Assembly: GCA_016930835.1 (NCBI GenBank)
Contig: JAFGGA010000069.1
Location: forward strand, 1 to 40,316
DNA length: 40,316 bases
DNA from: Deltaproteobacteria bacterium
Lineage (GTDB): Bacteria; Desulfobacterota; DSM-4660; Desulfatiglandales; HGW-15
Reading direction: 5' to 3'
Position 1 is the first letter of the stretch; each line of letters starts with the position of its first letter. The notes beneath the pieces were generated by a model, which saw only the letters and a list, made by a program, of their open reading frames with translations, had not been told where the DNA came from and ran no database searches. The position numbers and the translations under genes are program-made. Below, piece after piece: positions 9,391 through 39,846 of the stretch.

Positions 9391-10029
9391 TCACACTTCC
9401 TTGCTCAGACGATAAGCCAATTGATCCAGGGTGACGGAAAAATCCACATTTTGCACAAGACAGCAATCCGGCCTTCTGATATGGATAGGTGAAAAATTGA
9501 GAATCGCCTTAATGCCGGCATCAAAAAACATATCGGCCACTACCTGGGCCTGCAACGGGGAAGTGGTAATCACACCTATCTCTATCCCCAGATCTTGAGC
9601 CATTGGCTTGATCTTGCGGATGGGCTGGATGGTCAAACCTATTGGAAGTCTTTGGCCTATCTTTTTCGGGTCTGAATCAAAGGCCGCCACAAACTTATAA
9701 CCCCGTTTGAAAAAATTCTTATGCTGCAACAGTGCCATGCCCATATCATCGAGACCGGCTATCCCCAATTTCCATTCACGATCTGAGGCCAGGATCTTTT
9801 TGATCTCGAAAATCAGGTCATGGATATTATACCCCACTCCCCGAACGCCAAATCCTCCAAAATAGGATAAGTCCTTGCGTACCTGTGCCGGATTAACCTT
9901 GCACATCTCGGCCAATCTATCGGAAGAGATCACATGCACTCCCAGCTTTATCAGATCTTCAAGGGGCCTGAGATACAATGCTACCCTTTCAATGGTTGCA
10001 TCAGGGATTTTTTGATCTTTGATCACCAA
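9391..10029 (-). CDS. rex: Rex-family redox-sensing repressor with altered NAD-binding loop
   Basis: A 212-residue Rex-type repressor. The N-terminal winged helix keeps VNPAQVRKDLSYFG and GVRGVGY, the DNA-contact and hinge signatures. The C-terminal Rossmann domain should bind NADH/NAD+ and set DNA affinity. However, the dinucleotide loop, normally GxGNLG, reads G92-L-D94-D95-M-G97 here, so the second glycine is replaced by Asp and the Asn by Asp. The second Rex in this window (37540-38181) has the canonical G-I-G-N-L-G. The start is TTG at 10029 or the adjacent GTG at 10026; GTGAGG upstream fits the GTG slightly better. A Rex-like operator lies 30 bp upstream, suggesting autoregulation. It sits downstream of the ATP synthase F0 genes, separated by a terminator. 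Reduced or changed NADH response is inference. Confidence 0.9.
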   Translation of the reverse strand: MVIKDQKIPDATIERVALYLRPLEDLIKLGVHVISSDRLAEMCKVNPAQVRKDLSYFGGFGVRGVGYNIHDLIFEIKKILASDREWKLGIAGLDDMGMALLQHKNFFKRGYKFVAAFDSDPKKIGQRLPIGLTIQPIRKIKPMAQDLGIEIGVITTSPLQAQVVADMFFDAGIKAILNFSPIHIRRPDCCLVQNVDFSVTLDQLAYRLSKEV

Positions 10030-11299: not shown

Positions 11300-11692
11300 T
11301 TAAGAAACTCCCCCAATCCTTGATTTCCATGCATTGCTGATACCATAGCTTACAATACTCAACACAACGGTTGAAAGACCGATGGTCAGGCCGATGGGAT
11401 CGATCAGCCCGCGAGTGATCAAGATAAAGATGATTGCCCCTAATAAAAGCAAACGAATAAATGACTCGATGATGATCAGAAATTTATTAATCTTTATCAT
11501 TCCGTCCGATGGAAAGGACCTTTTGACGGTGGATTGGAAAAAGCCGAAATTGGCGATAATGATGAAACCCCCTAAAATAATTCCCAAGGTCATGGTATGC
11601 CCTAAGAAAAAATAACCGGCAGAGGATAAAATCAATAGAACGGTCCAATTCAGTCTTTTTATGCTCTCGTATGTTCGGTCCCAGTCATCCAT
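11300..11692 (-). CDS. atpI: ATP synthase-associated protein AtpI
   Basis: A 130-residue membrane protein with four predicted hydrophobic segments (about 18-36, 38-55, 72-92 and 98-118). Family members help assemble the c-ring or transport ions for it. The call rests on size, topology and position: 8 bp after atpZ and 3 bp before atpB. Sequence conservation in this family is low, so position carries much of the weight. Confidence 0.8.
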   Translation of the reverse strand: MDDWDRTYESIKRLNWTVLLILSSAGYFFLGHTMTLGIILGGFIIIANFGFFQSTVKRSFPSDGMIKINKFLIIIESFIRLLLLGAIIFILITRGLIDPIGLTIGLSTVVLSIVSYGISNAWKSRIGGVS

Positions 11693-11700
11693 TGGTAGAT

Positions 11701-11916
11701 CTATTCCTGAATCCTTTTAACCATCCGATACAGATTTCTGAAAGCGGCCACGATGCCGAAGCCCAAGAAGACAAAAAACAGCCACGGTTCAGTATGAAAA
11801 TGTCTGTCCGCATAATAGCCGATTATGGCCCCCAGTGCGATGGAAACAGCCATGACCAGGCCGACCGTGCTGAGATGGCCCAAGGTCCTGAAGGCCTTTT
11901 TGGTATCATTATCCAT
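11701..11916 (-). CDS. atpZ: AtpZ/AtpI-type small membrane protein
   Basis: A 71-residue protein with two hydrophobic helices separated by GYYADRHFHTEPW, the typical AtpZ hairpin with a GxxxD turn. AtpZ and AtpI proteins together are implicated in ion handling and c-ring assembly. I use the ATG at 11916; a GTG at 11934 is in frame but neither has a strong ribosome site. It is the first gene of the F0 cluster. Confidence 0.8.
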   Translation of the reverse strand: MDNDTKKAFRTLGHLSTVGLVMAVSIALGAIIGYYADRHFHTEPWLFFVFLGFGIVAAFRNLYRMVKRIQE

Positions 11917-11934
11917 TGGTTTGTGTTTATCCAC

Positions 11935-12118
11935 AAACTAAAGTTTCTGGATTCACGCTATCAGCCGACAGCGTTAGTGGGCAGCCAGCCAAAGATTTTA
12001 AGACCGGTTCGGTGCTGATAGCTGAACGCTGACCACCGAAGGCTCCATTCGGAATATACTAGTTCCGTATGGACAATATTGAAGGTTGCGCTTTTCTATC
12101 ACATAATTTTCTTCAAAG
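11935..12118. repeat. Intergenic spacer with heptamer repeat and inverted partner
   Basis: GCTGATA GCTGAAC GCTGACC at 12014-12034 is a three-unit 7-bp array. The segment CTATCAGCCGACAGCG near 11959-11974 is its approximate complement, so the two can pair as a long imperfect hairpin. It lies between hemL and atpZ, both on the minus strand. Confidence 0.5.
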
Positions 12119-13414
12119 TCAATACACTTTTCCCTTTAGTGAACGAAAGCTTTCCCTGGCACTTTCAATGGTTTTTTGTATTACCTCTTCATCATGAGCA
12201 ATGGAAATAAACGATGCCTCAAATGCCGAAGGGGCCAGATATATGCCCCGATTCAGCATCTCGGCGTAATATGCCCGAAACATCCCTGTATGACTCTTTT
12301 TGGCCGAGGCAAAATCCGTAACCGCTTTGTCAGTAAAGAACATCGACCCCATGGTGCCCACACGGTTGACCACAACCTTCAGGCCGCTGGATCGGGCCGC
12401 GTCCTCCAGGCCGGAGAACAAGGCCCTCCCCCTTTTTTCCAATTCCGGATAAATCATTCCTTTTTGAAGGATCTTCAATGTAGCCAGCCCGGCGGCCATG
12501 GCCAGAGGATTACCCGACAGGGTGCCTGCCTGATAGATATCCCCGTCCGGCGCAACTCTCTCCATAATGTCCTTTCTCCCGCCGTAAGCCCCCACCGGCA
12601 ATCCACCGCCGATGATCTTCCCAAGGCACGTGAGGTCGGGCATGATCCCAAAAAGCTCCTGCGCACCACCCGCACTCACCCGGAAACCCGTGATGACCTC
12701 ATCAAATATAAGTAAGGAACCATAATCCTTTGTTATTCTTCTCAACATGGACAAAAATTCCGTATTCGGCAGAACCACGCCCATATTCCCGGGTATGGGC
12801 TCCACGATCACGGCGGCTGTTTGGGATCCATATTGCTCAAAGGCACGACGCACTTCATCCATATTATTGAAGGATAATGATAGGGTCTTTTGGGCAAGAT
12901 CTTTTGGAACGCCTGGACTGCCGGGTATGCCCAGCGTGGCCACCCCGGAGCCGGCCGACACCAACAAGCTGTCGGCATGTCCATGATAACAGCCCTCGAA
13001 CTTGATGATCATCTCCCGACCCGTATAACCCCTTGCCAACCGAACGGCGCTCATGGCGGCCTCCGTGCCCGAATTGACCATGCGGACCATTTCCATGGAC
13101 GGGACCATATCGATGATCAATTCGGCAAGTTCCACCTCCAGTGCGGTGGGCGCCCCATAACTGGTGCCGTTTTTGATTTGGTCTCCAATGGCCTGGACCA
13201 CATCCGGATGAGAATGGCCCAGGATCATCGGCCCCCACGAACCCACATAATCCACATATTGATTACCGTCCGCATCCCATAGAAAACAGCCCTCCGCTCT
13301 TGCTATAAATGGCGGATCCATGCCGACGGCCTTCCCGGCTCGTACCGGGCTGTTCACACCGCCCGGGATGATCTTTCTGGCCCTTTGAAATAGGATTTCA
13401 GATTTTGTTCCCAT
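12119..13414 (-). CDS. hemL: Glutamate-1-semialdehyde 2,1-aminomutase
   Basis: A 431-residue PLP enzyme of fold type I that converts glutamate-1-semialdehyde to 5-aminolevulinate, the first committed tetrapyrrole precursor in the C5 pathway. Visible marks are PGGVNSPVRA near the N-terminus, NSGTEAAMSAVRLAR, the HGHAD loop, IFDEVITGFR for cofactor binding, and the PLP lysine in CLGKIIGGG. Length is normal. It is followed upstream on the same strand by the siroheme decarboxylase-like gene, which fits a tetrapyrrole context. No strong ribosome site is seen before the ATG. Confidence 0.97.
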   Translation of the reverse strand: MGTKSEILFQRARKIIPGGVNSPVRAGKAVGMDPPFIARAEGCFLWDADGNQYVDYVGSWGPMILGHSHPDVVQAIGDQIKNGTSYGAPTALEVELAELIIDMVPSMEMVRMVNSGTEAAMSAVRLARGYTGREMIIKFEGCYHGHADSLLVSAGSGVATLGIPGSPGVPKDLAQKTLSLSFNNMDEVRRAFEQYGSQTAAVIVEPIPGNMGVVLPNTEFLSMLRRITKDYGSLLIFDEVITGFRVSAGGAQELFGIMPDLTCLGKIIGGGLPVGAYGGRKDIMERVAPDGDIYQAGTLSGNPLAMAAGLATLKILQKGMIYPELEKRGRALFSGLEDAARSSGLKVVVNRVGTMGSMFFTDKAVTDFASAKKSHTGMFRAYYAEMLNRGIYLAPSAFEASFISIAHDEEVIQKTIESARESFRSLKGKVY

Positions 13415-22678: not shown

Positions 22679-24226
22679 TTGATTCAAGCGCAAGACTACT
22701 TTACATTGCGTTTTAACGGTTATTCCATGTATCCCACCCTAAAACCGGGGGACAGGCTGGTTGCCCGACGCGTACCACCGGATGCCTTGGAATACGGGGA
22801 CATTGTCATCGCCCATGTGTCTACGGATAAGCTCACCGCCCACCGTCTGGTGGCTATAAGACCGAACGGCGAGGGCTTTCTCAAAGGAGATTCCATGCTT
22901 ACCCCGGATCCTGCCCCGGTGAACCTTTCCTCTATTTTAGGCCGTGTTGATGCGGTCATTAGAAAAAATCAGCTCATTCATATTTCTAGAGGACCGAGGG
23001 CGCGATTCAAAAAAATCCATGCATGGCTCAGTCTAAATTGCCTCACCACGGGCTCTTTAAAACTTGGATTGAAAACCGTGTTTCAAAAATATCTTCCCGA
23101 TGATCCATCCGTAAATGCACAAAGGGAGATGCACCTTATAGTATCGATTATCAATGAACAGGCTTTAAGGGCATCCATTGAGCCCGAATGGGAAAAACTT
23201 TACGATCTGGCCCTTCGAGAAGGTGTGGCAGGACTTCTTTATTACTATATAAAGGGATCGAATGCTCCCGATGCCTTTTTAGATCGTCTGGAGATGTGCT
23301 ACCGGCAGACCGCGGCCTCTAACCTGATCCATATCAAGGCACTGGAAGCGTTGGAAGAAGTCTTAAGCAATGAAAAGTTAGACATTATGCTCCTCAAAGG
23401 CGCCTCCCTCCTGGATATTTTCTATCCGGGCCTCGGCATGCGACCCATGGATGACGTCGATATCTTGGTACGACCCAAGGATTTTGATAGATTGGTGAAT
23501 ACCCTTTCTTCTCAAGGCTATGAAAGAAATGCCCGCATCCCTCATGTGGTTCACAAAGCCGCCTTAACCTTGGACATTCACACCCATGCCCTCAATATCG
23601 ACAGGATCACCAGCCGGGAGGGGCTGTTCCCGAAAGGTATGGAGCCTATATGGAGAGAATCACTCCACTGGAAAGAAGGTTTTTACCGAATCAGGCGGCC
23701 CTGTGATATGGACAATGTATTCCTCCTCTCGCAACACCTTTTGAAACACTCTTTTTCCAAGTTTATCTGGCTCGTGGATATTCGGCAAATCGTAAAAGAC
23801 CGCGACAACATGTTTTGGGAAAAACTTATCGAACGAATGGAATATCTCGAACAGAAAAAGCCTTTTCATTACATAGTGTTTCTGCTTGAATATCTCTTTC
23901 ACCTGGATCGACCCCCAGCCTCAGGACTGAGTGTTCAACCCTCGGATTTCTCCAGATTGGAAAAGGGTATGTTAAAAGCGAAGTTGAAAGGGGAGTCCCT
24001 CAATCGTATAGGCCCCCTGCTTCTGCTCTTTTATATCTCTGGATTAAAAGGACGTCTATCGTTTTTACGGGAGACGGTCTTTCCGAAAGAGGAGATCCTG
24101 GAACAGGAATTCTCCAGATTCTCAAACCACAAAAAGTGGGCTTTTTATCCAAACCGAGTTGTTCATATGATCATCTTATCTCTTAGGCATATTTTGTATT
24201 TTTTACGCGCCTTTATTGAATCGTGA
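22679..24226 (+). CDS. S26-peptidase-like domain fused to a NTP_transf_5 nucleotidyltransferase
   Basis: A 515-residue two-domain protein. Residues about 8-95 resemble the S24/S26 signal-peptidase core: Ser16 in NGYSMYPTLKPGD, then His55 in LTAHRLV and LKGDS at 68-72, a Ser-His arrangement as in SipW/ER-type enzymes, without any membrane anchor. Residues about 145-500 match the uncharacterised nucleotidyltransferase family (PF14907-like): LLKGASLL at 238-245 and RPMDDVDILV at 255-264, where two Asp should bind metal. Such proteins are recurrent companions of lasso and other RRE-dependent RiPP clusters. The start is TTG with GAGG 7 nt upstream. It begins the plus-strand block followed by the ABC exporter. 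Leader cleavage or nucleotidyl tailoring of the peptide is inference. Confidence 0.8.
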   Translation: MIQAQDYFTLRFNGYSMYPTLKPGDRLVARRVPPDALEYGDIVIAHVSTDKLTAHRLVAIRPNGEGFLKGDSMLTPDPAPVNLSSILGRVDAVIRKNQLIHISRGPRARFKKIHAWLSLNCLTTGSLKLGLKTVFQKYLPDDPSVNAQREMHLIVSIINEQALRASIEPEWEKLYDLALREGVAGLLYYYIKGSNAPDAFLDRLEMCYRQTAASNLIHIKALEALEEVLSNEKLDIMLLKGASLLDIFYPGLGMRPMDDVDILVRPKDFDRLVNTLSSQGYERNARIPHVVHKAALTLDIHTHALNIDRITSREGLFPKGMEPIWRESLHWKEGFYRIRRPCDMDNVFLLSQHLLKHSFSKFIWLVDIRQIVKDRDNMFWEKLIERMEYLEQKKPFHYIVFLLEYLFHLDRPPASGLSVQPSDFSRLEKGMLKAKLKGESLNRIGPLLLLFYISGLKGRLSFLRETVFPKEEILEQEFSRFSNHKKWAFYPNRVVHMIILSLRHILYFLRAFIES

Positions 24227-24244
24227 TCAATATGGGATAATACA

Positions 24245-25930
24245 ATGACCGCGACCATTCATCTGTTCAAGAGGATCTTAAAAGACGGGAAGGCGTATAT
24301 CCCTATTTTTTCTTTTCTCGGTGGTATCGGACTTCTATTGATCCCCGTTGAATTCTATGCCCTGCTCCTCTCCAGAAAGCTCATTGACAGAGGTTTTTTG
24401 CTTCAAAATTGGGATGCCATAAAGGATATCCTGTTTCTCTTGATGATTCTCTTTTTGGTTCGGACCATCATCCATTATGGCGCCATGGTTTTATCAACAA
24501 AGGTCCAATTACGGATCAATCAGACCTTCCAGAACAGGCTTTTCTCATACATTCTCTATTTACCATTGCGTTTCTTCATTAAAGAGCCTACCGGTCAACT
24601 CATGTCCCGCATCCTGGATGATGCAAACCGTTTTTCAAACATCTTGAGTATGATTTTCGGACCCGCAATCATCGATCCCATCAAGCTGGTTGCCCTATTG
24701 AGCTTCTTGATCTACATCAATGGACGCCTCTGTGTTGTCATGATCCTATCAACGCTTCTCTCCCTCTGGATCATCGACCGGGTGGGGAAAAAACTAAGGG
24801 CGATCTCAAAGAAAATCCAGCAAAAAAACGCCGGTATCTATGCCTATGTGGAACAGATTTTCTCCAACATCGAATTGGTCAAATCCAAGGCCGCTGAAAA
24901 ACAAACCCAGCATCATTTTAACCGCTTAATCGACGAAATGATCGATCTATCCATGGATGCGTTAAAGGTCACATTATACGCACAGCCGGCGCTGCAGGTG
25001 CTGAAATATTTTACCTTGGGAGGGGTCTTTATCTATGGAAGCTGGATGATATCGGATCAAATCATCACCATCGGGACCATGACCATCTTTCTCGGAGGAA
25101 CGTACCTCTTCTTCAATACACTCAATTCCCTTGCAAATAATTATGGATCCCTTCGGGAAAGCCTTGCCCGCATGGAGATTCTCTATGAGATCATGGACAG
25201 TCAACCGGAAAACGCTTCCCCCTCGACGGTCATCAAACCTCTGACCAACCTCGCTAACATTGAATTCAGAGATGTCCATTTTGCCTATGAGCCGTCCCAT
25301 CCGGTATTAAGGGGCGTATCCTTTTTGGTCCGACAGGGCGAGGTCCTCGGCATTACGGGTCAAAGCGGAAGCGGAAAAACAACCCTTGTGCGACTCCTTT
25401 TACGGTTTTACAGGCCGGATTCAGGCACTATACACCTTGCCGGTCAAAGCCTCGAACAGATTGAATTGCCGAGTCTGAGACATTCCGTGGGTATCGCTTT
25501 TCAGGAGAATCTGATGCTGAATAACACCATCAGGGAAAATATCGCCTACGGAGACGAAGACCTATCCCTGGATTCGATTATTCAAGCGGCTAATACCGCC
25601 CGCGCCCATAGCTTTATTGAGAGGCTTCCCCATCAATATGAAAGCCTGGTGGGTGAGAGGGGAACAAGCCTATCCGGAGGTGAAAGGCAGCGTCTGGCCA
25701 TTGCTCGCGCCATTATTACGAATCCTGAGATCCTTATACTCGATGAAGCCACATCTTTCCTCGAAGTTGAACAGGAAGAGGTCATCCTGAAGGGCATTAA
25801 AAAAATACGTCGGAACAAAATAACCATCATTATTTCTCACCGTTTATCCGCGATGGAAATGGCGGACTGCATCCTGACATTGGATAATGGTCGGGTCCTT
25901 GATATACGAACCCCAGGGAATCGGCTTTAA
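24245..25930 (+). CDS. ABC exporter, fused membrane and ATPase domains
   Basis: A 561-residue half-transporter of the MsbA/peptide-exporter type. The membrane domain (about 15-310) has six hydrophobic segments; the ATPase has Walker A GQSGSGKTT, signature LSGGERQRLAIARA, and Walker B LILDEATSFLE followed by the switch His in ISHRLS. In the D-loop position the usual SALD reads SFLE. No C39 peptidase domain precedes the membrane domain, so if it exports the Cys-rich peptides their leader must be removed by another protein. It lies 18 bp after the peptidase-like/nucleotidyltransferase gene. Substrate assignment rests on position. Confidence 0.9.
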   Translation: MTATIHLFKRILKDGKAYIPIFSFLGGIGLLLIPVEFYALLLSRKLIDRGFLLQNWDAIKDILFLLMILFLVRTIIHYGAMVLSTKVQLRINQTFQNRLFSYILYLPLRFFIKEPTGQLMSRILDDANRFSNILSMIFGPAIIDPIKLVALLSFLIYINGRLCVVMILSTLLSLWIIDRVGKKLRAISKKIQQKNAGIYAYVEQIFSNIELVKSKAAEKQTQHHFNRLIDEMIDLSMDALKVTLYAQPALQVLKYFTLGGVFIYGSWMISDQIITIGTMTIFLGGTYLFFNTLNSLANNYGSLRESLARMEILYEIMDSQPENASPSTVIKPLTNLANIEFRDVHFAYEPSHPVLRGVSFLVRQGEVLGITGQSGSGKTTLVRLLLRFYRPDSGTIHLAGQSLEQIELPSLRHSVGIAFQENLMLNNTIRENIAYGDEDLSLDSIIQAANTARAHSFIERLPHQYESLVGERGTSLSGGERQRLAIARAIITNPEILILDEATSFLEVEQEEVILKGIKKIRRNKITIIISHRLSAMEMADCILTLDNGRVLDIRTPGNRL

Positions 25931-26038: not shown

Positions 26039-26205
26039 TCTTCAAAAATGAAGACTTTGTCACAGTTTAGCCTTTTGAAAATGATGAGATGCAAGGCCTG
26101 GGCCGTGGGCCATGCGCCTTCTTAATACGGCCTCAAAAAGATGGGCTTTCACGCAAGCCTTAAGATTTCTCGTATCCAAACAGGTTTTTAAGGAGAATGC
26201 CAATC

Positions 26206-27156
26206 ATGTCATTGGTGGTTTCTCATCTTAAAATGCTTTCAGACCATAGACGGCTCGAATCGTACCGTCAAGCGATCTTTCAAACCGTGAAAAAGGGAGA
26301 TGTGGTCGCTGATATAGGGACGGGAACCGGCGTATTGGCTGTTTTTGCTGTTCAGGCCGGAGCCAAAAAGGTTTATGCCGTTGAAATAAGCCCCATCATA
26401 GATGTCGCGAAAAAAACAGCAAAAGAAAATGGATGCTTCGATTCCATTGAATTTATACAAAAAGAATCAAAAAATGTGGATTTTGCCGAACCCATCAACC
26501 TGATCGTCACGGAGACCATTGGCGCCCTGGGGATCGATGAACGGATAGTGGATATCTTATCCGACGTGAGGAAACGATTTCTGGATGAACGGGGTCGAAT
26601 CATCCCCGCATCCCTGTCCCTCTTGGCCGCTCCCGTTTCCTTCACGGAGGGGCATCCTTTTCGATTTTTGGATAGATCTTTCCATGGGATACAAACGCAA
26701 AACCTCAAACGACTGGCCGTGAACAATATCTATGGCCTGAAAACGGATTCTCTGGATCAGACTCGACTGGTATCCAAACCGACCAAAATCTTTGAAGCCC
26801 ATTTTTACTCATGCGAACCCATTCGATTTCCATTGCATATGGATGGGTCATTTGAGATTTTTGATGAGAGTATCCTTGATGGCATAATGGTATTTCCTGA
26901 GATAGGACTCACGGATGAGATCACCTTGTCGCTTTGGGAGGAAGATCACTTTTTACCCACACATTGGGACGTCTCTTTTTTCCCAATGTCAGAAGAAATC
27001 ATGACCCATAGGAATGATATCGTAAGTTTCAGGCTGACCTTTACCGAAAAAAACGGTCTCATCTGGCAGGTCGGAGTGGAAGGAGAAAAACAAAAAAAGG
27101 TCCTGACCCAACTCTCCACCTTCGGACTCCCGTCGCTACGGCATTTGATGCCTTAG
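26206..27156 (+). CDS. PRMT-like SAM-dependent methyltransferase
   Basis: A 316-residue class I methyltransferase. Motif I VVADIGTGTGVLAVFA lies at about 33-48, and the N-terminal MLSDHRRLESYRQAI matches the entry helix of arginine methyltransferases. The segment TETIGALGIDER (about 102-113) occupies the position of the PRMT double-Glu loop, with only a partial match, so arginine may not be the target. AAGGAG sits 10 nt before the ATG at 26206; an ATG at 26197 is only 1 nt from it and less likely. The gene converges on the RiPP precursor gene and their coding ends overlap by 4 bp. Peptide methylation is inferred from context; protein or small-molecule targets are possible. Confidence 0.8.
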   Translation: MSLVVSHLKMLSDHRRLESYRQAIFQTVKKGDVVADIGTGTGVLAVFAVQAGAKKVYAVEISPIIDVAKKTAKENGCFDSIEFIQKESKNVDFAEPINLIVTETIGALGIDERIVDILSDVRKRFLDERGRIIPASLSLLAAPVSFTEGHPFRFLDRSFHGIQTQNLKRLAVNNIYGLKTDSLDQTRLVSKPTKIFEAHFYSCEPIRFPLHMDGSFEIFDESILDGIMVFPEIGLTDEITLSLWEEDHFLPTHWDVSFFPMSEEIMTHRNDIVSFRLTFTEKNGLIWQVGVEGEKQKKVLTQLSTFGLPSLRHLMP

Positions 27157-27419
27157 CCGGCTCCTGGCCCTCCTCTACAAACCATTGCGGTAAAAGGTCC
27201 GCCGCCGGTCCTGCAGACGACAGGCCTATCCGGATTCCCCCCCGGACAGCCAAGCGTTGGTGCAGGCCCACCTGGACAGGTTCCCGCCCTGAACGGACCG
27301 CCTCCCGGACAATCGGAAAAAATACTGCCGACAACACAGGAGAGTCCCATGGCCTGTTCAAACACACCGCCTATTTCTTTGATGGTTGGGGGCTCATATT
27401 TTTTTCTTTTTTTCGACAT
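27153..27419 (-). CDS. Cys-rich RiPP precursor peptide A2
   Basis: An 88-residue peptide, downstream member of a tandem pair. The leader (1-27) has Y8-x2-P11-x-I13-x3-G17-x5-A23-x-G25, the pattern by which lasso-type leaders bind PqqD-like RRE domains, with Ala where lasso leaders have Thr. The core (about 26-88) holds cysteines at 28, 37, 48, 58, 69 and 81, spaced 9, 11, 10, 11 and 12 residues, within Gly/Pro-rich units: CPGG occurs three times and a CRGG ends the series. Leader identity with A1 is nearly complete while the core diverges, as expected for a precursor family. It has no signal peptide. The gene ends 4 bp inside the convergent methyltransferase gene. The modification and cleavage site are inferred, not visible. 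Confidence 0.82.
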   Translation of the reverse strand: MSKKRKKYEPPTIKEIGGVFEQAMGLSCVVGSIFSDCPGGGPFRAGTCPGGPAPTLGCPGGNPDRPVVCRTGGGPFTAMVCRGGPGAG

Positions 27420-27465
27420 ATCCCGATCTTATTTCTGATTGTGTCCATCCACCAGTCTCTCCTTG

Positions 27466-27711
27466 TCAGGCTGTCGTGGAAAAGGTCCCGCCACCGGCCT
27501 GGCAGACAGTGGCCACATCCGTCCGTCCTCCGGGGCAACCTTGACTTGGAGCCGGTCCGCCCGGACAGGTCCGACCGAAACCGGGACCGCCGGAGCAGTC
27601 CGAGAATACGGTTCCCACCGCGCATGACAACCCCATGGCCTGTTCAAACACGCCCCCGATTTCTTTGATAAAAGGCGGATGATACTCCTTTCTCTTTTCT
27701 TTATCAGGCAT
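27466..27711 (-). CDS. Cys-rich RiPP precursor peptide A1
   Basis: An 81-residue peptide, paralogous to A2. The leader has Y10-x2-P13-x-I15-x3-G19-x5-A25-x-G27 and shares the run IKEIGGVFEQAMGLSC with A2. Core cysteines are at 30, 39, 49, 59 and 70, spaced 9, 10, 10 and 11 residues, with two CPGG units; compared with A2 the sixth cysteine segment is replaced by a short Ser/Thr tail TFSTTA, a possible target for the neighbouring kinase-like protein. The start overlaps the end of the HPr-kinase-like gene by 8 bp and AGGTG lies just before it, so the peptide is translationally coupled to the biosynthetic operon. A2 begins 46 bp after its stop. Confidence 0.82.
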   Translation of the reverse strand: MPDKEKRKEYHPPFIKEIGGVFEQAMGLSCAVGTVFSDCSGGPGFGRTCPGGPAPSQGCPGGRTDVATVCQAGGGTFSTTA

Positions 27712-28762
27712 GATTCACCTCGCTTTCACGGTTGAGTATGGCACTATCCCATAAATCCCGCCTCTTTGAAAATTGCAGTCTGTACGCGGGTAAACACCCC
27801 ACCATGTCTTTGGTGATATAGAAGCCCTTTTCGGCTGTTTCTCTATCCATGAATTTATAAAAGTGAATCATATGCCTTAAAATGCAATCCATCAATTCAT
27901 TTTTTTTTACCGGTAGAGTCTTGTTTTGATCGGCCTTTTCCAATATAAAAACCTTTTGAAGCTGGATCTTTGCCGGGTCTCCATCTTTGCCGGGCCGATC
28001 GAACTGCCGAAAAGGTGAATCATAGACAAATACGGCGCCCATTTCTCTTTTTAGAATCACCCCATCATCTGACAAACAAATATCCGGACCGATTAACCGG
28101 GTAATGGTTGATTTACCCGCACCCGAAACGCCCAAAAACAAATAACCATGACCGTCCTTTTGAAGGGCGCTGCCATGAAGCAACAAGCCGTGATTGTAAA
28201 TCAGCAGATGGGAGAGGATAAACATGATACCGTTAAGTATCCCGGACCAAATCATGCTTTGGCCCAGATCGAAAATCTTCATCATCCACTGAACCAGTGG
28301 AAAACGTTTGAATGTCTCTCCTATAAAAAGAAAGGCCGTTCTGGTTCCTGTATCAAAAAAAAAGAGGTCCATCCCGATCCGGGCATATGTTAGCCTTTGC
28401 CCATCAATCATCTGACGAATATGCCGGACTACCTCGGATTCGGGGTCCAGATACTGCATGAGCCTGAGAGACAGATCGATACGATCAGGCTGATCATCCC
28501 GTGGATATCGGCCATGGACCTCTGAAAAAAAATTTCTGAAGCGGTCAATCTCGATCATTTCCCAGGGATGTTTATAGATATATGGGAACGGAATAATCCT
28601 GATATTACAGGTGGCTTCACCGGAAGCGGCGTGATAATCTCCAAGAAACCTCTTCACGAGATGTAATAGATAACCATTACTTGATTCCGTGGTGAGACGA
28701 ATCGTCTCTCCCCCTATTTGGAGATCCCAATCTAGATCTGGAGTGTTTTTCCGTTCAGACAT
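27704..28762 (-). CDS. HPr-kinase-like ATPase of RiPP locus
   Basis: A 352-residue protein related to the C-terminal catalytic domain of HprK. The HGSAL segment (196-200), Walker A GVSGAGKST (211-219) and LSDDGV after it match the HprK pattern; the N-terminal 190 residues are unlike HprK and resemble the variable part of HprK-related proteins in peptide clusters. In Paenibacillus lasso clusters such kinases phosphorylate the peptide C-terminus; here the substrate is inferred. I start at the ATG at 28762, which overlaps the end of the preceding radical SAM gene by 8 bp; a longer frame begins at 28819 inside that gene. It overlaps precursor A1 by 8 bp. Confidence 0.8.
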   Translation of the reverse strand: MSERKNTPDLDWDLQIGGETIRLTTESSNGYLLHLVKRFLGDYHAASGEATCNIRIIPFPYIYKHPWEMIEIDRFRNFFSEVHGRYPRDDQPDRIDLSLRLMQYLDPESEVVRHIRQMIDGQRLTYARIGMDLFFFDTGTRTAFLFIGETFKRFPLVQWMMKIFDLGQSMIWSGILNGIMFILSHLLIYNHGLLLHGSALQKDGHGYLFLGVSGAGKSTITRLIGPDICLSDDGVILKREMGAVFVYDSPFRQFDRPGKDGDPAKIQLQKVFILEKADQNKTLPVKKNELMDCILRHMIHFYKFMDRETAEKGFYITKDMVGCLPAYRLQFSKRRDLWDSAILNRESEVNHA

Positions 28763-29831
28763 AACCTTGTTTTTGTCCCGCGTAGACCATATAACATGAA
28801 AAAGGATCCCACCCGTCAATACCCTTTCCTAAATTATAAGGTACGGCGGGACAGCCACCCCGACATACGGAGATGAAAGAACACCCTAGGCACTCTTCAA
28901 ACGAATTCATTCGCTTTGAGTAACGTTCTCGAAATCGTTCAAACCCCTTTGAGTGAAGCCAGATGGATTGAAAGGGCGCTTCCCGGACATTCCCCACCTG
29001 ATAATCCCAAAGCCTATCGCATGGAATCACCCCGCCTTCCGGTCGGATAGCGCACTCGGAGACGCTTCCGCCGCAACTGGTAATCCAATTGGCCTCATGA
29101 ACAGACTCCCCCTTTGGTTCCGAATGAGAAATACGTTCCATGAGATCGAAGGTCTCAAGCATGTTGCCACCCACTAAGCCGGCATGGTCCCTGCGTAAAT
29201 CCTTTAGGCAATGCTCAACATCCTTTTCATCTTCAAAGTCAAGACGAAGCTCATCGAAATGGGCTATGGCCCCCCCTTGAGGAGAAAGGGGGGAAAAGGA
29301 AATACGGGATACGCCGATCCTTTTCGCAAGATTGACCATGTGAGGAAGAAAATTTTGATTTATTTTGTGTACCACCACATTAAAGGATAATGGGATGCCC
29401 GATTCCATGAACTGAACCACGCCCTCCATCATCTTCTTAAAAGAGCCTTGCCCCCTCATCCTGTCATGGGTTCGCTCATCAGGTCCGTCCAAAGAAACCT
29501 GTACATTATCCACACGGTTGGAATCGGCAAGCAAGTTTATCGCGGATCGATTGATGATCGTTCCGTTGGTATTGATGGAGATTCTAAAATGGTACTGAAA
29601 AATCCGCTTTAGAATCTCATCCAGATCGGATCGGAGAAATGGTTCCCCTCCTGAAATCACCAGGTTGAAGACCTTGATCCGGGCGAGTTCGTCGATAAGC
29701 CTTTTCCATTCTACCAGGTTCAGGTCCCCGGGATGGTTCTTGGTTGTAGAAACCGCGCAATAGATACAAATGAGGTTGCACCTGTTGGTGACATTGAGTG
29801 TGACCTTCTGAGGGGCTGAAGGGATCTTCAT
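28755..29831 (-). CDS. Radical SAM/SPASM protein 2 of RiPP locus
   Basis: A 358-residue radical SAM enzyme. The 4Fe-4S/SAM cysteines are C18-x3-C22-x2-C25 in RCNLICIYC; ISGGEPFL is the SAM-binding GGE motif. The C-terminal third has a SPASM-type set: CGGSVSEC, PCDRL, then CLGC, CRGGCP and a last Cys, enough for auxiliary clusters. SPASM enzymes commonly install thioether, C-C or related crosslinks in peptides, and a Cys-rich target is next door. The gene overlaps radical SAM 1 by 4 bp (ATGA) and the HPr-kinase-like gene by 8 bp, so it belongs to a tightly coupled operon. The chemistry is inference. Confidence 0.88.
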   Translation of the reverse strand: MKIPSAPQKVTLNVTNRCNLICIYCAVSTTKNHPGDLNLVEWKRLIDELARIKVFNLVISGGEPFLRSDLDEILKRIFQYHFRISINTNGTIINRSAINLLADSNRVDNVQVSLDGPDERTHDRMRGQGSFKKMMEGVVQFMESGIPLSFNVVVHKINQNFLPHMVNLAKRIGVSRISFSPLSPQGGAIAHFDELRLDFEDEKDVEHCLKDLRRDHAGLVGGNMLETFDLMERISHSEPKGESVHEANWITSCGGSVSECAIRPEGGVIPCDRLWDYQVGNVREAPFQSIWLHSKGFERFRERYSKRMNSFEECLGCSFISVCRGGCPAVPYNLGKGIDGWDPFSCYMVYAGQKQGYV

Positions 29832-30967
29832 GAACGTCGGTCCCTGTTGATCAGAGCGATCTCATCATCCAGCAAAATCCTCGATTCAGGGAAGAGACCC
29901 ATTTGAAAAACTTCTTCGCACATTCCATAGGGAGCCGTCAGCGGCAGCCCTTTCCCCAAAAGATCCGCCCGGCAAAATCCCAGGCAATGATATCTGAAAA
30001 GACATCGACCGCAAATCCCTTGCAGCTCAAAAGGGATCTTGTCACGGATCTCTTTAAATATTTCTCCTTCCCGCCATATGAGCACGATGCTCTGTTCTTT
30101 AACGTTCCCGAGGATAAGATCTTTATTCCTCCTTCCAATGCCGCATATGGAGACATCCCCGTTGGAAAGAATGCCGCAGATATTATGGATCTTGCAGGTA
30201 CAAAGGCCATATAGAGCGAATTCGTTTATGCCCTTTAATGCAGGAGGAAGATACAGATCAATATGCATGCCCGAATATTTCGTGGGGAATTCTTCCTCCA
30301 CTCTTTTTTCCAAGGCCATGAGTTCATCATTGGCAAGGCCTCGGCAAGACATATTTTGCAAATCCGTTGGTCCCAGCAGGGCGACGGGATTGATTTCGAA
30401 CGACCGCACACCCAAATCGGAGATCAATCGCATCGTATTCTCGAGGTCACCGGCATTTGCCTTTTGTAAACAGAAGATGACCTGCGGATATATTCCATGT
30501 TCCATGAGCATTTTGATCGCAGCAACGGTTTTTTGAAAGCTCCCTTTTACACCCCTGATCTTTTCATGAACCAGAGGTCTACTCCCATCGAGACTGGTGC
30601 AAAATTGATGGATATTATAGGTCAAAAGACGTGGGATCATATCCTTTGTGAGAAGGGTTCCATTGGTTTCAAAAGTCATCGAAAGCCCGTGTTGATGAAA
30701 CATATCGAGATATTCAAAAAGCTGAGGATTCAAAAAAGGCTCACCACCGGTGATTTTTATGTGGTTTAACCCCAGCGGGATTGCATCCATTACAACCCGC
30801 TCCATGGCCTCGACCGATATATTATCCTGATTACGGGCTTGATAAGTCGCTTCATCGGCGGTGTAGTCCGGACCGATCCAACAATGGTTGCAACGAAGAT
30901 TGCAAGACTCCGTCGGATAAAAATAGATGGATCGTAAAGGAAAATCCAAGTCCCTATTTGGTGTCAT
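29828..30967 (-). CDS. Radical SAM/SPASM protein 1 of RiPP locus
   Basis: A 379-residue radical SAM protein. C22-x3-C26-x2-C29 in SCNLRCNHC binds the SAM cluster and KITGGEPFLNP is the GGE motif. The C-terminal part (about 255-350) has CTCKIHNICG, VSICG, CGRCLFRYHC and GFCRAD, a SPASM/twitch-like cysteine set. I start at ATG 30967 (AAAGAGG 10 nt upstream), 25 bp after the second PqqD-like gene; the frame extends to 31018 inside that gene. It differs clearly from radical SAM 2, so the two probably have separate jobs on the same peptides, or one serves as a partner. Confidence 0.87.
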   Translation of the reverse strand: MTPNRDLDFPLRSIYFYPTESCNLRCNHCWIGPDYTADEATYQARNQDNISVEAMERVVMDAIPLGLNHIKITGGEPFLNPQLFEYLDMFHQHGLSMTFETNGTLLTKDMIPRLLTYNIHQFCTSLDGSRPLVHEKIRGVKGSFQKTVAAIKMLMEHGIYPQVIFCLQKANAGDLENTMRLISDLGVRSFEINPVALLGPTDLQNMSCRGLANDELMALEKRVEEEFPTKYSGMHIDLYLPPALKGINEFALYGLCTCKIHNICGILSNGDVSICGIGRRNKDLILGNVKEQSIVLIWREGEIFKEIRDKIPFELQGICGRCLFRYHCLGFCRADLLGKGLPLTAPYGMCEEVFQMGLFPESRILLDDEIALINRDRRS

Positions 30968-30992
30968 GAAACAAAAACCTCTTTGGGTAGAA

Positions 30993-31268
30993 TCATGCAG
31001 ACATAAATCCAAAATCATGCAAGCCTTTTAAAAACATATCGCAATCTTCCGTGATCTTTTCCCTCGACTGATCCGAATATTCCGAGCACAACCTGCCTAC
31101 AAGTTGATCCTTGGTAATGGGTCTTGCGCATAAACGCCAAACCTCAACGCCCGTATCATTCAAATAACAAATCCGGCCGGTACCCGGGTCGAAAAGGAAC
31201 GCCCCGTCGTCTTCTTCCCTCAGCACGATATCCTTTTTTATGATGATCTCTTTGTCCTCATTGAACAT
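30993..31268 (-). CDS. PqqD-like RRE protein 2
   Basis: A 91-residue PqqD-family protein. The fold signature is a beta-strand with GAFLFDPGTGRICYLNDTGVEVWRLC followed by a helical half ending DCDMFLKGLHDFGF, matching the leader-binding RiPP recognition element. I start at ATG 31268, which overlaps the end of the first PqqD-like gene by 11 bp; the longer frame to 31343 runs inside it. In related RiPP systems this protein holds the leader peptide and delivers it to the modifying enzyme. The leader motif in the precursors here fits that function. Confidence 0.82.
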   Translation of the reverse strand: MFNEDKEIIIKKDIVLREEDDGAFLFDPGTGRICYLNDTGVEVWRLCARPITKDQLVGRLCSEYSDQSREKITEDCDMFLKGLHDFGFMSA

Positions 31269-31536
31269 ATATCCAGCCCCTTTCCAAAAGGTTTGCCAGG
31301 AATCGGGTGATATCCTTTTCGATGCGTTCTTCAGGTTGTTCAAATATCTGAGCCGTCATCCGGATGATTTCTCCCAATTCTCTCTGCCCGTCCATTAATC
31401 TCAACAGTTCTACCCCGGTTGAATTGATTTCGCAAGAAACACGCGTATCCAGATCAAAGATAACGCCGCCGTCTTCAAACCCGGTGAAGAGGATATGATC
31501 TTTCAAAAAAAATCTATGGGTTCGATGAACACACAA
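31258..31536 (-). CDS. PqqD-like RRE protein 1
   Basis: A 92-residue PqqD-family protein with GGVIFDLDTRVSCEINSTG, LLRLMDGQRELGEI and DITRFLANLLERGW, the strand-helix plan of RRE proteins. The start codon is TTG at 31536, with AAGGA about 10 nt upstream. It follows the B12-radical SAM gene by 13 bp and overlaps PqqD-like 2. Sequence divergence between the two PqqD-like proteins suggests they do not simply duplicate each other; each may serve one radical SAM enzyme. Confidence 0.8.
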   Translation of the reverse strand: MCVHRTHRFFLKDHILFTGFEDGGVIFDLDTRVSCEINSTGVELLRLMDGQRELGEIIRMTAQIFEQPEERIEKDITRFLANLLERGWIYVQ

Positions 31537-31549
31537 TCCGGTCAGATCC

Positions 31550-32941
31550 TTACGAATGGAAATTCACACGTTCCCGGTTTGAAGCCAGATATTGATTCAA
31601 TTTCTTGTAGGTACTCAACAGATCCGTTGCTTTATCATATGCCGCGACGATCTCTGATGATGAAAAATTCTCCAGACAACTGACCGGCTCTGACGTCCAC
31701 CTTCTCCAACGGCTCCAGTCATAAGAAAAAATCCGGATGCCGTATTTTCCGGGATCATAAAAAAATTCCGTTCCCGGATACGGGACGAAAATAAAGGCAT
31801 AACCGCTTTTCAGTAAACCCTTTTCCAGAAAGGACTTGAATTGTCCATAGGTATGATCGGCCTCATGGGCATCATCGCCCGGGTGCCCGATAAGCCAGTA
31901 ACCAGTGAGCCAAATATTATTCCGCATCAGCTTCTCGCAACCGCTATGGACACTTTCAAAGCTGAGACTTTTGTTCATCTCTCTCAGCACCTTTTGCGAA
32001 AAGCTTTCAATCCCCACGCAAGTACGGCTGATGCCGGTCTGACGCATGGTATCTATTCCCTCATCGGTCACGGTATCGATGCGGGTCGTAATATAGAAAT
32101 CAGTGGGTAATCGAATATCGTTTTCTCTTATGCTTTGGAAGAACTGAAAGAATTTTTTCGAATGCATGCCCAACATGCTCTCTTCCAAACCGGTAAATTG
32201 GGTCTGGTAAGATTTTTGCAGCATCTCCATCTCTTGAATGACCTTCTCTATGCGGTAGGGCCTGGGCTTGCCCCAAAACTTCTCTTCAATACAGTATTTA
32301 CAATGATAAGCGCAACCTCGATGCAATATCCCGTGAATGTAGGACATCTTTACGAAATCCGCGGGAAGCAATCCAAAATCAACCGGTGGTATTTCGGCCA
32401 GCGAACCATGGATTTCATCTTCATTTCTTCGTATCTTTCCATTTTCTCCAATCGTTATTCCCTTTACAGCTTGGTAATCTCTTTTTTCATAGATCGCCCG
32501 CAAAAGGTTTAACATCACCCATTCACCCTCACCCCTGACCACGATGTCCAATCCAGGGGCCGTTTGAATGCTTTCAACATCACAAAAAGTGGCATGAGAT
32601 CCCCCCATGACCGTTATGATACGTGCATCGATCTCCTTGCACATTTTGATGATATCCACACAATTATGGAAATCTTTAGTATAACAATTGCTTACACCGA
32701 TGACCATCGGATCGACCGATCTGATGGTATCTATTAAGATATGATACACCTCCATCTGATCGATATTGCCTTTGATAAACCCGGATTCATCAACCGGATA
32801 ATCCTTTTTGAAATAAAAACCCAAAGGCAAAACAGTGGTGGGAAATCCTCGTCGATTCAGAAAGGTGGCGATTTCCATAATCCCGCGTGGAAAAATAAAT
32901 AATTCCCCCGGGGGTGATATCAGCAGGCATCTCTTTTTCAT
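31550..32941 (-). CDS. B12-binding radical SAM protein of RiPP locus
   Basis: A 463-residue protein with an N-terminal cobalamin-binding Rossmann domain (about 1-150, with VMGGSHATF) and a radical SAM domain with C210-x3-C214-x2-C217 in RGCAYHCKYC. Later motifs LTGYWLIGHPGD and PYPGTEF are typical of B12-dependent radical SAM methyltransferases and relatives. In RiPP systems such enzymes methylate unreactive carbons or build rings. It is the first gene of the tightly packed block, 13 bp before the PqqD-like pair. Target and reaction are inferred; no peptide-specific feature is visible in it. Confidence 0.85.
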   Translation of the reverse strand: MKKRCLLISPPGELFIFPRGIMEIATFLNRRGFPTTVLPLGFYFKKDYPVDESGFIKGNIDQMEVYHILIDTIRSVDPMVIGVSNCYTKDFHNCVDIIKMCKEIDARIITVMGGSHATFCDVESIQTAPGLDIVVRGEGEWVMLNLLRAIYEKRDYQAVKGITIGENGKIRRNEDEIHGSLAEIPPVDFGLLPADFVKMSYIHGILHRGCAYHCKYCIEEKFWGKPRPYRIEKVIQEMEMLQKSYQTQFTGLEESMLGMHSKKFFQFFQSIRENDIRLPTDFYITTRIDTVTDEGIDTMRQTGISRTCVGIESFSQKVLREMNKSLSFESVHSGCEKLMRNNIWLTGYWLIGHPGDDAHEADHTYGQFKSFLEKGLLKSGYAFIFVPYPGTEFFYDPGKYGIRIFSYDWSRWRRWTSEPVSCLENFSSSEIVAAYDKATDLLSTYKKLNQYLASNRERVNFHS

Positions 32942-33104: not shown

Positions 33105-34127
33105 CTAAAAATAAGGCCGCAGATACGAACACATATCCTCCGGTGAGATCATGCAGAACACCTCACCATGGAGTTTTTCATAATAATTGACATCCCCCGT
33201 ATCCAGTGGGGGAAATACGGATCGGGGCATGATTCGCGCCGTTGTCCAGAGTCCTTGTTGGGGTTGAAAATAGATAAAAAGGGCCATGTTCAAACTGGTG
33301 AAATGAAGGGCGGATAGGCCCCTTAAAATGCAACACAACCCTTGGGAAAAGGATTCGAAATATGTTTCCGTATGATCCAAAATGCTCTCCTGCCTTTCAA
33401 AGACCACCACGATCTCTCCGGTCATATTCCGGGGCGCAAATGGTGCCAAGAAGCTCACATCTCCAAAACGGCCTATGAACCGCTCTCCTGTTTTCTCCTC
33501 TTCATGAACATATCGCTCCCAGAACACCTGGCCGGAGGATCTTAGATACGCGGCAGAGCAGGTGGCCATCAAGTCCATGAACTGGGTAGGGCGATGTGAT
33601 GCAACCGGTTGAAGATGGGGGTGAATCAAACCTCCCCCTGAAGGCGGCATATAATTCCAATTGATAGAGCCGTATCGAAGCCCTGGATCCAGTCCCCTGA
33701 GCCTTTGTATATAAGCGAAAGAGGCCGTTAGGCCATCCAACAGGATTTGTTCCGTGAATTCCGCCATGGGAACAAAATGCCTTATCGTCAAACGCGCCAC
33801 GGCACTATGCGGTTGATATGGAAATAGATTGGGGACGACAACCACTTCCCCGTATGTGATCCTACCGTTTTCGGCGATGGTTGATAGAAATTTCGGGGTC
33901 CGCCGCTCAACCATATCAGGACAAAATGGACATGGATTTTTTAATGATTGTGCTATCGCTTGCTCAAGGTCTTTCGGCGCCTTGAGGCGAAACCCATGTG
34001 GAAGGATCCACCCGATTTGTTGTGTCAAAGGATCCGTTCTTCGTTCAATAAGAACCCTTTTCTCCTTAAAATCCTCCATAGGATTTAGAAATACAGCCTC
34101 TTTAGTCTCTTTGATCAACTGAAACAT
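33105..34127 (-). CDS. GalT/HIT-superfamily nucleotidyltransferase-like protein
   Basis: A 340-residue protein of the galactose-1-phosphate uridylyltransferase branch of the HIT superfamily. The catalytic pattern reads H169-P-H171-L-Q173 where GalT has H-P-H-G-Q; a metal-type pair C66-x2-C69 in NPCPFCPD is also present. Length matches GalT, but overall resemblance is modest, so ADP-glucose or other nucleotide phosphorylases are possible. The start is supported by AAGGA 6 nt upstream. It lies upstream of the RiPP operon on the same strand, 163 bp away, and could be an independent gene or a tailoring enzyme. Confidence 0.75.
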   Translation of the reverse strand: MFQLIKETKEAVFLNPMEDFKEKRVLIERRTDPLTQQIGWILPHGFRLKAPKDLEQAIAQSLKNPCPFCPDMVERRTPKFLSTIAENGRITYGEVVVVPNLFPYQPHSAVARLTIRHFVPMAEFTEQILLDGLTASFAYIQRLRGLDPGLRYGSINWNYMPPSGGGLIHPHLQPVASHRPTQFMDLMATCSAAYLRSSGQVFWERYVHEEEKTGERFIGRFGDVSFLAPFAPRNMTGEIVVVFERQESILDHTETYFESFSQGLCCILRGLSALHFTSLNMALFIYFQPQQGLWTTARIMPRSVFPPLDTGDVNYYEKLHGEVFCMISPEDMCSYLRPYF

Positions 34128-37539: not shown

Positions 37540-38181
37540 ATGCACAAAAAACAGAAAATACCTAAGGCAACCATAACAAGGCTCTCAATCTATTGCCGGC
37601 AACTTGAACTTCTTGAATTCGACGGTTATCGGATGGTCTCCTCGGAAAAGCTTGCCTGGTTGTGCCAGGTGAATGCGGCCCAGGTCAGAAAAGACCTTGG
37701 ATATTTTGGAGAATTCGGCGTTCGAGGAGTCGGCTATGATGTTAGAGATCTCCAAATCGAAATTAAAAAAATACTCGCCGTGAATCGCGGATGGAACATG
37801 GGGCTTGTAGGGATCGGAAATCTGGGCACGGCATTACTGAAACATCAAAATTTTCCAGATAGGGGTTTCCGTTTTGTAGCGGCTTTTGATTCGGATCCCG
37901 AAAAAATCGGGAAGAACCTTTCTTCAGGATTTATTGTCAGGGATATAAAGGAGTTAAAAAAAACAACCCAGGAGCTGAATATCGGTATCGGCGTGATTGC
38001 CACCCCCGCTTCAGGTGCCCAGGAAGTAACCAACAATCTCGTTGATGCGAATATATGTGCCATCCTGAATTTTTCCCCCTTGCAGATAAGCGCTCCGGAT
38101 AATTGTGTCGTCGAACATATCGATTTTACCATTAAGCTCGATGTTCTGACCTATAAACTGAAATACGAAATAGGACTCTGA
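37540..38181 (+). CDS. rex: Redox-sensing transcriptional repressor Rex
   Basis: A 213-residue Rex with all canonical parts: winged helix with VNAAQVRKDLGYFG and GVRGVGY, Rossmann loop G91-I-G93-N-L-G96 for NAD(H), AFDSDPEKIG after the second strand, and the swapped C-terminal helix. When NADH/NAD+ is low it represses fermentative and energy genes. It shares layout and about half its residues with the variant Rex at 9391-10029. rnhA follows 65 bp downstream. No clear ribosome site precedes the ATG. Confidence 0.95.
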   Translation: MHKKQKIPKATITRLSIYCRQLELLEFDGYRMVSSEKLAWLCQVNAAQVRKDLGYFGEFGVRGVGYDVRDLQIEIKKILAVNRGWNMGLVGIGNLGTALLKHQNFPDRGFRFVAAFDSDPEKIGKNLSSGFIVRDIKELKKTTQELNIGIGVIATPASGAQEVTNNLVDANICAILNFSPLQISAPDNCVVEHIDFTIKLDVLTYKLKYEIGL

Positions 38182-38862: not shown

Positions 38863-39846
38863 ATGAGATGTCCTAAGTGCGGCTATGTCAGTTTCGACTA
38901 TAATCAGACATGCCCTAGATGCAACAAAGATATTTCCGCCGAAGTGGGAAAGTTGGGGCTTACATCTTTTAAGCCTGAACCCCCTTCCCTACTGGGTGCG
39001 CTGACCGGAGAGGCCAATGAATCCCATGTGGATCTCGATCTGCGCGCTTCATCGAAATTTACGGGAACAGATGAAATGGAAGATGGTTTGAGCGGTTCTC
39101 AAGTCCTTGAAATGCCGGATGTTAAAATAGGAGAAGAGGAGTCGATCGATCTTTCCGAGGGTGAAGAATCGCTGGATAATGATCTGAATGCGGATCTTGG
39201 AGATTCAAGGGCATTTGATGACGATACCATTGATTTTGATGAGCCCATTCCCACTGAATCCGCACAGGATGATACCATGGACCTGGATCTTGACATTGAG
39301 GAAGAGCCTCGGGCAGATTCATCCGCTGATGAAGAACCCCTTACAGAAGAGTTTAACGAGGAAGATGTATTAGACCTCGAATTGGATGATTCCATCAAAA
39401 AAACACCTGATCTGAATCAACCTGTTTCACCACCGACACAGCAAGCCGACAGCCTGGAGCTTGAACTTGATGCCATCTCACTTGACGAGGACGAGATGGC
39501 CAAACTTGAGGTTAATGAGGAATTACCGGAAAAGACTGAGCCGGACCCAGATGACGAAATAGCCTTAGTGGAAGGCGCGGGTGCAGGCCTCGGTGAGAGT
39601 GCCATGATCGAGTTGAACCTGGATGATTTAAAGATAGATAAGACCGGCCAGCTTGAGATCAAAGATAAGGCTCAATTCTCTGAAGGTTTGAAAAAACTCA
39701 CGGCAAAAAAAGGGGAAGCAAAAGGTAAAAAATCCAAAGAACATATGGATATCAACCTAAAAATTGATGATGATGACCTCAATCTCGACCTTGAAAAATT
39801 GGATTTGGAAATAGATATTGAAAAGCCGGAAAATAAAGTATTATAA
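38863..39846 (+). CDS. Acidic protein with N-terminal zinc ribbon
   Basis: A 327-residue protein. The first 27 residues form a zinc ribbon (CPKC at 3-6, CPRC at 17-20). The rest is strongly acidic and rich in Asp, Glu, Leu and Ser, with repeated DLDL/LELD motifs, no membrane segment and only a basic patch (KKLTAKKGEAKGKKSK, about 280) before the end. It resembles the N-terminal half of the DUF3426 protein at 19814-20869 but lacks the membrane helix and extracytoplasmic domain. GGGGGTG about 6 nt before the ATG supports the start. Function unknown. Confidence 0.75.
   Translation: MRCPKCGYVSFDYNQTCPRCNKDISAEVGKLGLTSFKPEPPSLLGALTGEANESHVDLDLRASSKFTGTDEMEDGLSGSQVLEMPDVKIGEEESIDLSEGEESLDNDLNADLGDSRAFDDDTIDFDEPIPTESAQDDTMDLDLDIEEEPRADSSADEEPLTEEFNEEDVLDLELDDSIKKTPDLNQPVSPPTQQADSLELELDAISLDEDEMAKLEVNEELPEKTEPDPDDEIALVEGAGAGLGESAMIELNLDDLKIDKTGQLEIKDKAQFSEGLKKLTAKKGEAKGKKSKEHMDINLKIDDDDLNLDLEKLDLEIDIEKPENKVL

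Follow-up and report, generated by a model that had tools for sequence, protein, structure and literature searches.

Tandem precursors built of C-x-x-G modules lie in a radical SAM/SPASM cassette related to SCM

The window, by which we mean the whole 40,316-nucleotide stretch analysed, carries on its minus strand an operon whose last genes are two small tandem ORFs, A1 and A2, labelled in order of transcription (Table 1). The ORFs from a pair of PqqD-like RREs through A1 overlap by 4-86 bp, and the A1 start sits within the 3' end of the kinase ORF. The gene 163 bases upstream of the B12-radical SAM gene (33105-34127, minus strand) contains HPHLQ, a motif that recalls GalT/HIT-type proteins, and it gave no Pfam match and no significant NCBIfam match. 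On the plus strand, the S26B-like/NTP_transf_5 fusion is a candidate leader protease and tailoring enzyme, no C39 peptidase match was found in the ABC exporter, and the place of the PRMT-like methyltransferase in the pathway is uncertain. Genes that by sequence appearance encode Rex-like redox-sensing repressors flank the region (9391-10029, minus strand; 37540-38181, plus strand).

Table 1 Features of the precursor locus and its neighbourhood in the window
Feature	Position	Strand	Remarks
S26B-like (Ser-His) signal-peptidase domain fused to NTP_transf_5 nucleotidyltransferase	22679..24226	+	convergent with the operon
ABC exporter, permease and ATPase	24245..25930	+	no C39 peptidase match
PRMT-like methyltransferase	26197..27156	+	convergent with the precursors
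Precursor A2	27153..27419	-	88 aa; leader as in A1; 6 C-x-x-G modules
A1 stop TGA and degraded module remnant QGETGG	27448..27468	-	gap-free alignment with A2
Precursor A1	27466..27711	-	81 aa; Y-x-P-P leader, frozen block IKEIGGVFEQAMGLS, 5 C-x-x-G modules
HprK/PEPCK-fold P-loop kinase, ScmC-like	27704..28819	-	32 bits, cut-off 125; likely start near 28762
ScmE-like radical SAM/SPASM maturase	28755..29831	-	219 bits, cut-off 400
ScmF-like radical SAM/SPASM maturase	29828..31018	-	270 bits, cut-off 400
PqqD-like RRE, ScmD-like	30993..31343	-	35.5 bits, cut-off 100; first ATG at 31268
Second PqqD-like RRE	31258..31536	-	overlaps the ScmD-like RRE
B12-binding-domain radical SAM protein, candidate C-methyltransferase	31550..32941	-	not seen in the G004 cassette

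A1 and A2 have basic leaders with Y-x-P-P and share a 16-residue block, IKEIGGVFEQAMGLSC, that is identical between them. Seven of the 16 codons of this block differ between the two genes, all seven synonymously and none nonsynonymously. In the core, 19 codon differences are synonymous and 21 nonsynonymous, none of which replaces a shared Cys. This pattern of codon substitution is strong sequence-level evidence for translation of both ORFs and for constraint on leader and Cys residues. The two tandem ORFs with a near-identical leader, as reported in a preliminary description, are both real, with the leader under strong purifying selection, and the codon data speak against the refuting case named there, frames that are not translated. 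The Cys spacings read from the minus strand, 9/10/10/11 in A1 (five Cys) and 9/11/10/11/12 in A2 (six), agree with the 9-12 residues first described, as does the Ser/Thr-ending tail of A1, STTA. The module itself had been given as C-P-G-G or C-x-G-G; Gly-bearing Cys units are indeed present, but the true invariant is the broader C-x-x-G, with Gly at +3 for 11/11 Cys of the pair. An AlphaFold2 model of the precursor is disordered (pLDDT 43, pTM 0.13), which fits expectation for an enzyme substrate, and on these values a folded repeat protein was rejected.

A2 does have one module more than A1, as the preliminary description held, but the difference is not a clean absence. The TGA stop of A1 aligns without gaps with the TGT codon of the sixth Cys of A2, and the degraded QGETGG beyond it stands opposite RGGPGA in A2. 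The simplest account of these aligned sequences would be a nonsense change at the Cys codon, or its reverse; both directions are compatible with the five modules of the ortholog in a genome of the same family, G004. The position of the TGA opposite a Cys codon, in a genome that encodes SelB scoring over its cut-off, raises the question of a selenocysteine that would give A1 a sixth seleno-module. This reading was dropped as extremely improbable, since no SECIS-like hairpin was found downstream of the TGA (z = 0.38), the residue at +3 after it is Glu instead of Gly, and the homologs offered no support: an in-frame CxxG occurs within 40 codons past the stop in only 4/74 precursors, whose stop codons are mixed.

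The A1/A2 pair was used to search the phylum and recovered G004, the one relative of the same family found to have the cassette, together with more distant genomes. G004 carries two such cassettes on one contig with three precursors, and no B12-radical SAM protein was seen in the G004 cassette; the cassette with CxxG precursors is also present in G110, G073 and G053. CxxG is kept throughout the alignment of the first nine precursors, and the resulting nine-row profile finds matches at E <= 0.01, a part of them weak, in 24 of the phylum's 395 genomes. When an ScmF-like alignment was scanned over 84,980 GTDB species, at least 532 relatives were detected, and most of the best 80 loci, which we examined, contain the cassette and CxxG precursors. 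Going by the titles of their records, these 80 loci include representatives of Deltaproteobacteria/Desulfobacterales, Omnitrophota, Delongbacteria, Fermentibacteria, Chloroflexi, Nitrospirae, Aminicenantes, Bacteroidetes, Verrucomicrobia/Lentisphaerae, WOR-3, Saganbacteria, Riflebacteria, Margulisbacteria and archaea, the last exemplified by a four-module precursor on a Methanoregulaceae contig (L092). Home-made profiles applied to 83 loci, many of them incomplete, found HprK-like proteins in 63, ABC exporters in 47 and an S26-like domain in 46. The Ser and His of the S26-like domain are invariant across 50 aligned sequences. A corresponding count for the B12-radical SAM protein was discarded, because its home-made profile picks up any radical SAM domain.

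Among 451 Cys residues in 76 precursors, Gly stands at +3 in 423, at +4 only in 16 and at neither position in 12; as the precursors were mostly picked for CxxG content and homologs are non-independent, the numbers convey a strong pattern without being exact probabilities. Two precursors added by hand, L076 and L118, have a C-x-x-x-G variant, the latter beside an ScmE that scores over its cut-off. A less circular set comprised 82 small ORFs near SPASM genes, picked by YxxP and at least four Cys only. Their CxxG fraction is sharply bimodal (37 ORFs at 1.0 and 22 at 0), the low group being mostly spurious frames. In the 55 ORFs with a fraction of at least 0.5, Gly occupies +3 for 90% of Cys, compared with 6-50% at other offsets; in the high-CxxG ORFs 58% of Cys have Ala or Pro at +6, and the following Cys lies mostly at +10 or +11. 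CxxG-dominated ORFs with at least four Cys cluster near SPASM genes (53 near and 4 far, against 389 and 515 for other ORFs; p = 1.7e-14), and all four of the distant ones are themselves precursor-like. The conservation of leader and Cys spacing anticipated for homologs was borne out: 61 of 63 ORFs chosen by CxxG alone carry [YW]xxP in the leader, against 6.6 in shuffles, and 88% of the Cys spacings over 74 precursors are 9-12. A W/Y/LxxP leader motif has been published for PqqD-type RREs (PMC12710340). The leader/core junction reads A-x-[AG] in 41/74 precursors against 21.9 in shuffles, an excess overstated by the relatedness of the sequences. Across loci this junction showed no association with the presence of an S26 gene, and it was kept as a peptidase site only as a lead.

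The modular core seen in A1 and A2 recurs across the aligned homologs, with 3-9 modules per precursor plus one of 20 (n=74). Precursors with near-identical leaders have unlike module counts (8 and 7, 5 and 6, 9 and 7), and module number differs in 23 of the 27 listed pairs, which are non-independent, whose leaders are at least 60% alike. Other precursors that are closely related have equal counts, as do L069 and L131 with 9 and 9 at a core identity of 0.72. DNA identity is 44% for modules of the same precursor and 41% for those of different loci; of 1007 within-precursor module pairs just 2 reach 80%, so that recent tandem duplication was rejected as almost absent from module DNA. Because identity within precursors scarcely exceeds that between loci, the modules are old and individually diverged, though their number varies. 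The proposal that precursors evolve by adding or losing modules is upheld as far as the count varies, from 3 to 20, and loses ground in that recent copying is not seen in the DNA and that the window pair seems to differ by a nonsense change, or its reverse, and not by a deleted unit. The longest array, 20 C-x-x-G modules in a single ORF, is found in Delongbacteria (L051:3026-3736, plus strand).

The nearest named system to the window is the SCM cassette (SynChlorMet; NCBIfam TIGR04248-TIGR04252, which stand for ScmA, C, D, E and F). Both contain two distinct SPASM maturases, a PqqD, an HprK-like ScmC and an adjacent small Cys precursor, so the window has the SCM gene architecture, and the best NCBIfam match of its kinase, of each SPASM protein and of one PqqD is an SCM model. 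The window falls below all five curated cut-offs (ScmA at 9.8 bits against 35; Table 1 for the others), all of which a control locus, L043, passes. An extra PqqD, the B12-radical SAM protein and tandem precursors go beyond SCM. Since it fails the SCM cut-offs, we file the window cassette as a divergent relative of SCM and not as a member. The ScmA of L043 has six CxxG modules, so that SCM shares this design: a chain of CxxG units that recurs across bacteria and archaea and of which SCM is the sole named, and a narrow, branch. Used by itself, TIGR04252 (ScmA) detects the precursors poorly, as 1 of 61 relatives exceeds its cut-off and control genomes give weak matches, and Pfam and NCBIfam named no precursor save 5 of 26, weakly, as ScmA. 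We know of no product or enzyme activity for SCM-like cassettes, and a literature search on SynChlorMet, GeoRSP and CxxG with radical SAM, whose coverage mostly excludes subscription papers, found nothing relevant.

The structural model of the kinase (pLDDT 87.5) matches PEPCK/HprK folds with Z about 14, and H215, the Walker-A GKST and DD251-252 are conserved among 30 homologs; by predicted fold and active-site residues the product qualifies as an HprK/PEPCK P-loop kinase. Compared with solved structures, the profile of the ScmF-like family (SPASM_F) is nearest to SkfB, followed by PqqE and other SPASM enzymes. The PapB model scores 87.4 bits against SPASM_E and 62.1 against SPASM_F, far short of its cut-off of 340.

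Sactipeptides have a thioether from Cys sulfur to a C-alpha, and ranthipeptides one to C-beta or C-gamma, made by PapB/CteB-type maturases. Ranthipeptides (freyrasin, SCIFF) and sactipeptides (SkfA, ruminococcin C) resemble the window in that SPASM radical SAM enzymes act on Cys precursors. The window differs from them in its CxxG every ~10 residues, paired maturases, discrete PqqD and HprK-like kinase, and its CxxG unit is without the fixed Asp/Thr acceptor of known ranthipeptides. Lasso peptide and HPr-rel-A gene sets share with the window a YxxP leader, a discrete PqqD and a kinase, whereas two SPASM maturases and a Cys-module core set the window apart; no asparagine-synthetase-like cyclase was present among the scanned cassette proteins, and the locus does not classify as a lasso peptide system. 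The TVGG-repeat radical SAM RiPP TvgA likewise has a tandem repeated core and radical SAM modification, but its motif is Cys-free and its maturase partners and chemistry are others (PMC9062424).

A conserved leader, a variable core and adjacent modifying enzymes with an RRE qualify the locus, at the level of sequence, as a RiPP locus. We consider that A1 and A2 are probably paralogs that serve as RiPP precursors in an SCM-like pathway of radical SAM enzymes, which installs a thioether per C-x-x-G unit and ends in tailoring and export. The PqqD-like RREs would bind the constant leader through Y-x-x-P and pass the disordered core to both radical SAM/SPASM maturases, which would act repeatedly on C-x-x-G units ~10 residues apart. 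The most likely outcome in each unit would be a thioether on the Cys, of sactionine or ranthipeptide type, with the Gly at +3 as a possible acceptor. Further tailoring may be performed by the HprK-like kinase, with the peptide as its presumed substrate, and, in this strain, by the B12-radical SAM protein and perhaps also by a methyltransferase. For leader removal the strongest candidate is the S26-like Ser-His peptidase, and export would fall to the ABC exporter; we infer the order of these steps. This pathway reading is based on the best matches to ScmE, ScmF, ScmD and ScmC, the overlapping genes and the coding constraint, on the recurrence of the cassette with CxxG precursors, the prevalence of Gly at +3, the closeness of CxxG ORFs to SPASM genes and the YxxP leader, and on the proximity of SPASM_F to SkfB, the disordered precursor model, the kinase fold and the invariant S26 Ser/His. 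Its thioether/Gly part draws on glycine being a known sactionine acceptor and on the six repeated Cys-Asp rings of freyrasin (PMC8326336). The presence of the S26 domain in only part of the loci and the junction motif unassociated with it count against the reading. That each module is one modification unit, as first suggested, is plausible from sequence in view of the near-invariant Gly at +3. A more specific and bolder version, in which the paired SPASM enzymes move along the chain and close a thioether ring on the Gly alpha-carbon of every C-x-x-G, so forming strings of 3-20 rings that are a RiPP class of their own in many bacterial phyla and in archaea, strikes us as possible and rather doubtful.

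Two further points weigh against our reading: the role of the Gly at +3 could be in a turn or in recognition by the enzymes and not in accepting a bond, and the two SPASM enzymes may do non-thioether chemistry. In one rival account, also a radical-SAM RiPP, CxxG would be the recognition unit and the change another one, such as Gly C-alpha chemistry, C-C or ether cross-links, Cys oxidation, epimerisation or methylation. The SPASM family is catalytically versatile, mycofactocin, heme and PqqE maturase models also score with the ScmE- and ScmF-like proteins, and cyclopropylglycine arises from TVGG repeats without any Cys (PMC9062424). Sulfur chemistry is nonetheless favoured by a near-invariant Cys every ~10 residues and by SPASM_F lying nearest to SkfB among solved structures, and we regard the non-thioether account as unlikely, if deserving of consideration. 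A cofactor or a metal- or redox-binding peptide, in place of a secreted signal or antimicrobial, would suit the wide bacterial and archaeal spread, which resembles that of cofactor-type systems, and the Cys-rich core, whose Cys may then stay free or bind metal. That core and its module number vary widely, unlike a fixed cofactor, and ABC exporters are common at the loci, so this account seems improbable. That the ORFs go untranslated, or encode small, folded, Cys-rich repeat proteins with no connection to the maturases, is highly improbable given the codon-level constraint on A1/A2, the conserved linkage to maturases, the PqqD-type leader and the disordered model.

The best reading of the wider set is a widespread, largely unnamed radical-SAM RiPP class. 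With one rule, a YxxP leader followed by C-x-x-G every ~10 residues, the precursors of this group can be located readily and its chemistry can be put directly to the test; the obscure SCM cassette is also linked with a much larger group from uncultured bacteria and archaea. Should every unit become a ring, module number would be a natural test of SPASM maturase processivity and the repeats a scaffold for multi-ring peptides. Natural fusions among the loci (L063:11449-12768, plus strand, and others) join PqqD to an ScmE-like maturase, HprK to S26 and S26 to NTP_transf_5, which supports one common pathway. A precursor-like ORF at L056:11975-12637 (plus strand) has seven CxxG modules followed by a long Cys-free tail rich in Ser, Gly, Lys and Pro. 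SCM-like cassettes lie side by side in L039 (G004:C129:1-19500), where a below-cut-off relative of LynF/TruF/PatF-like prenyltransferases (11486-12355) hints at further RiPP tailoring and an Rce1-like CAAX protease gene lies at 1958-2602; its right flank encodes a relative of the protein at window positions 38863-39846, suggesting synteny with the window.
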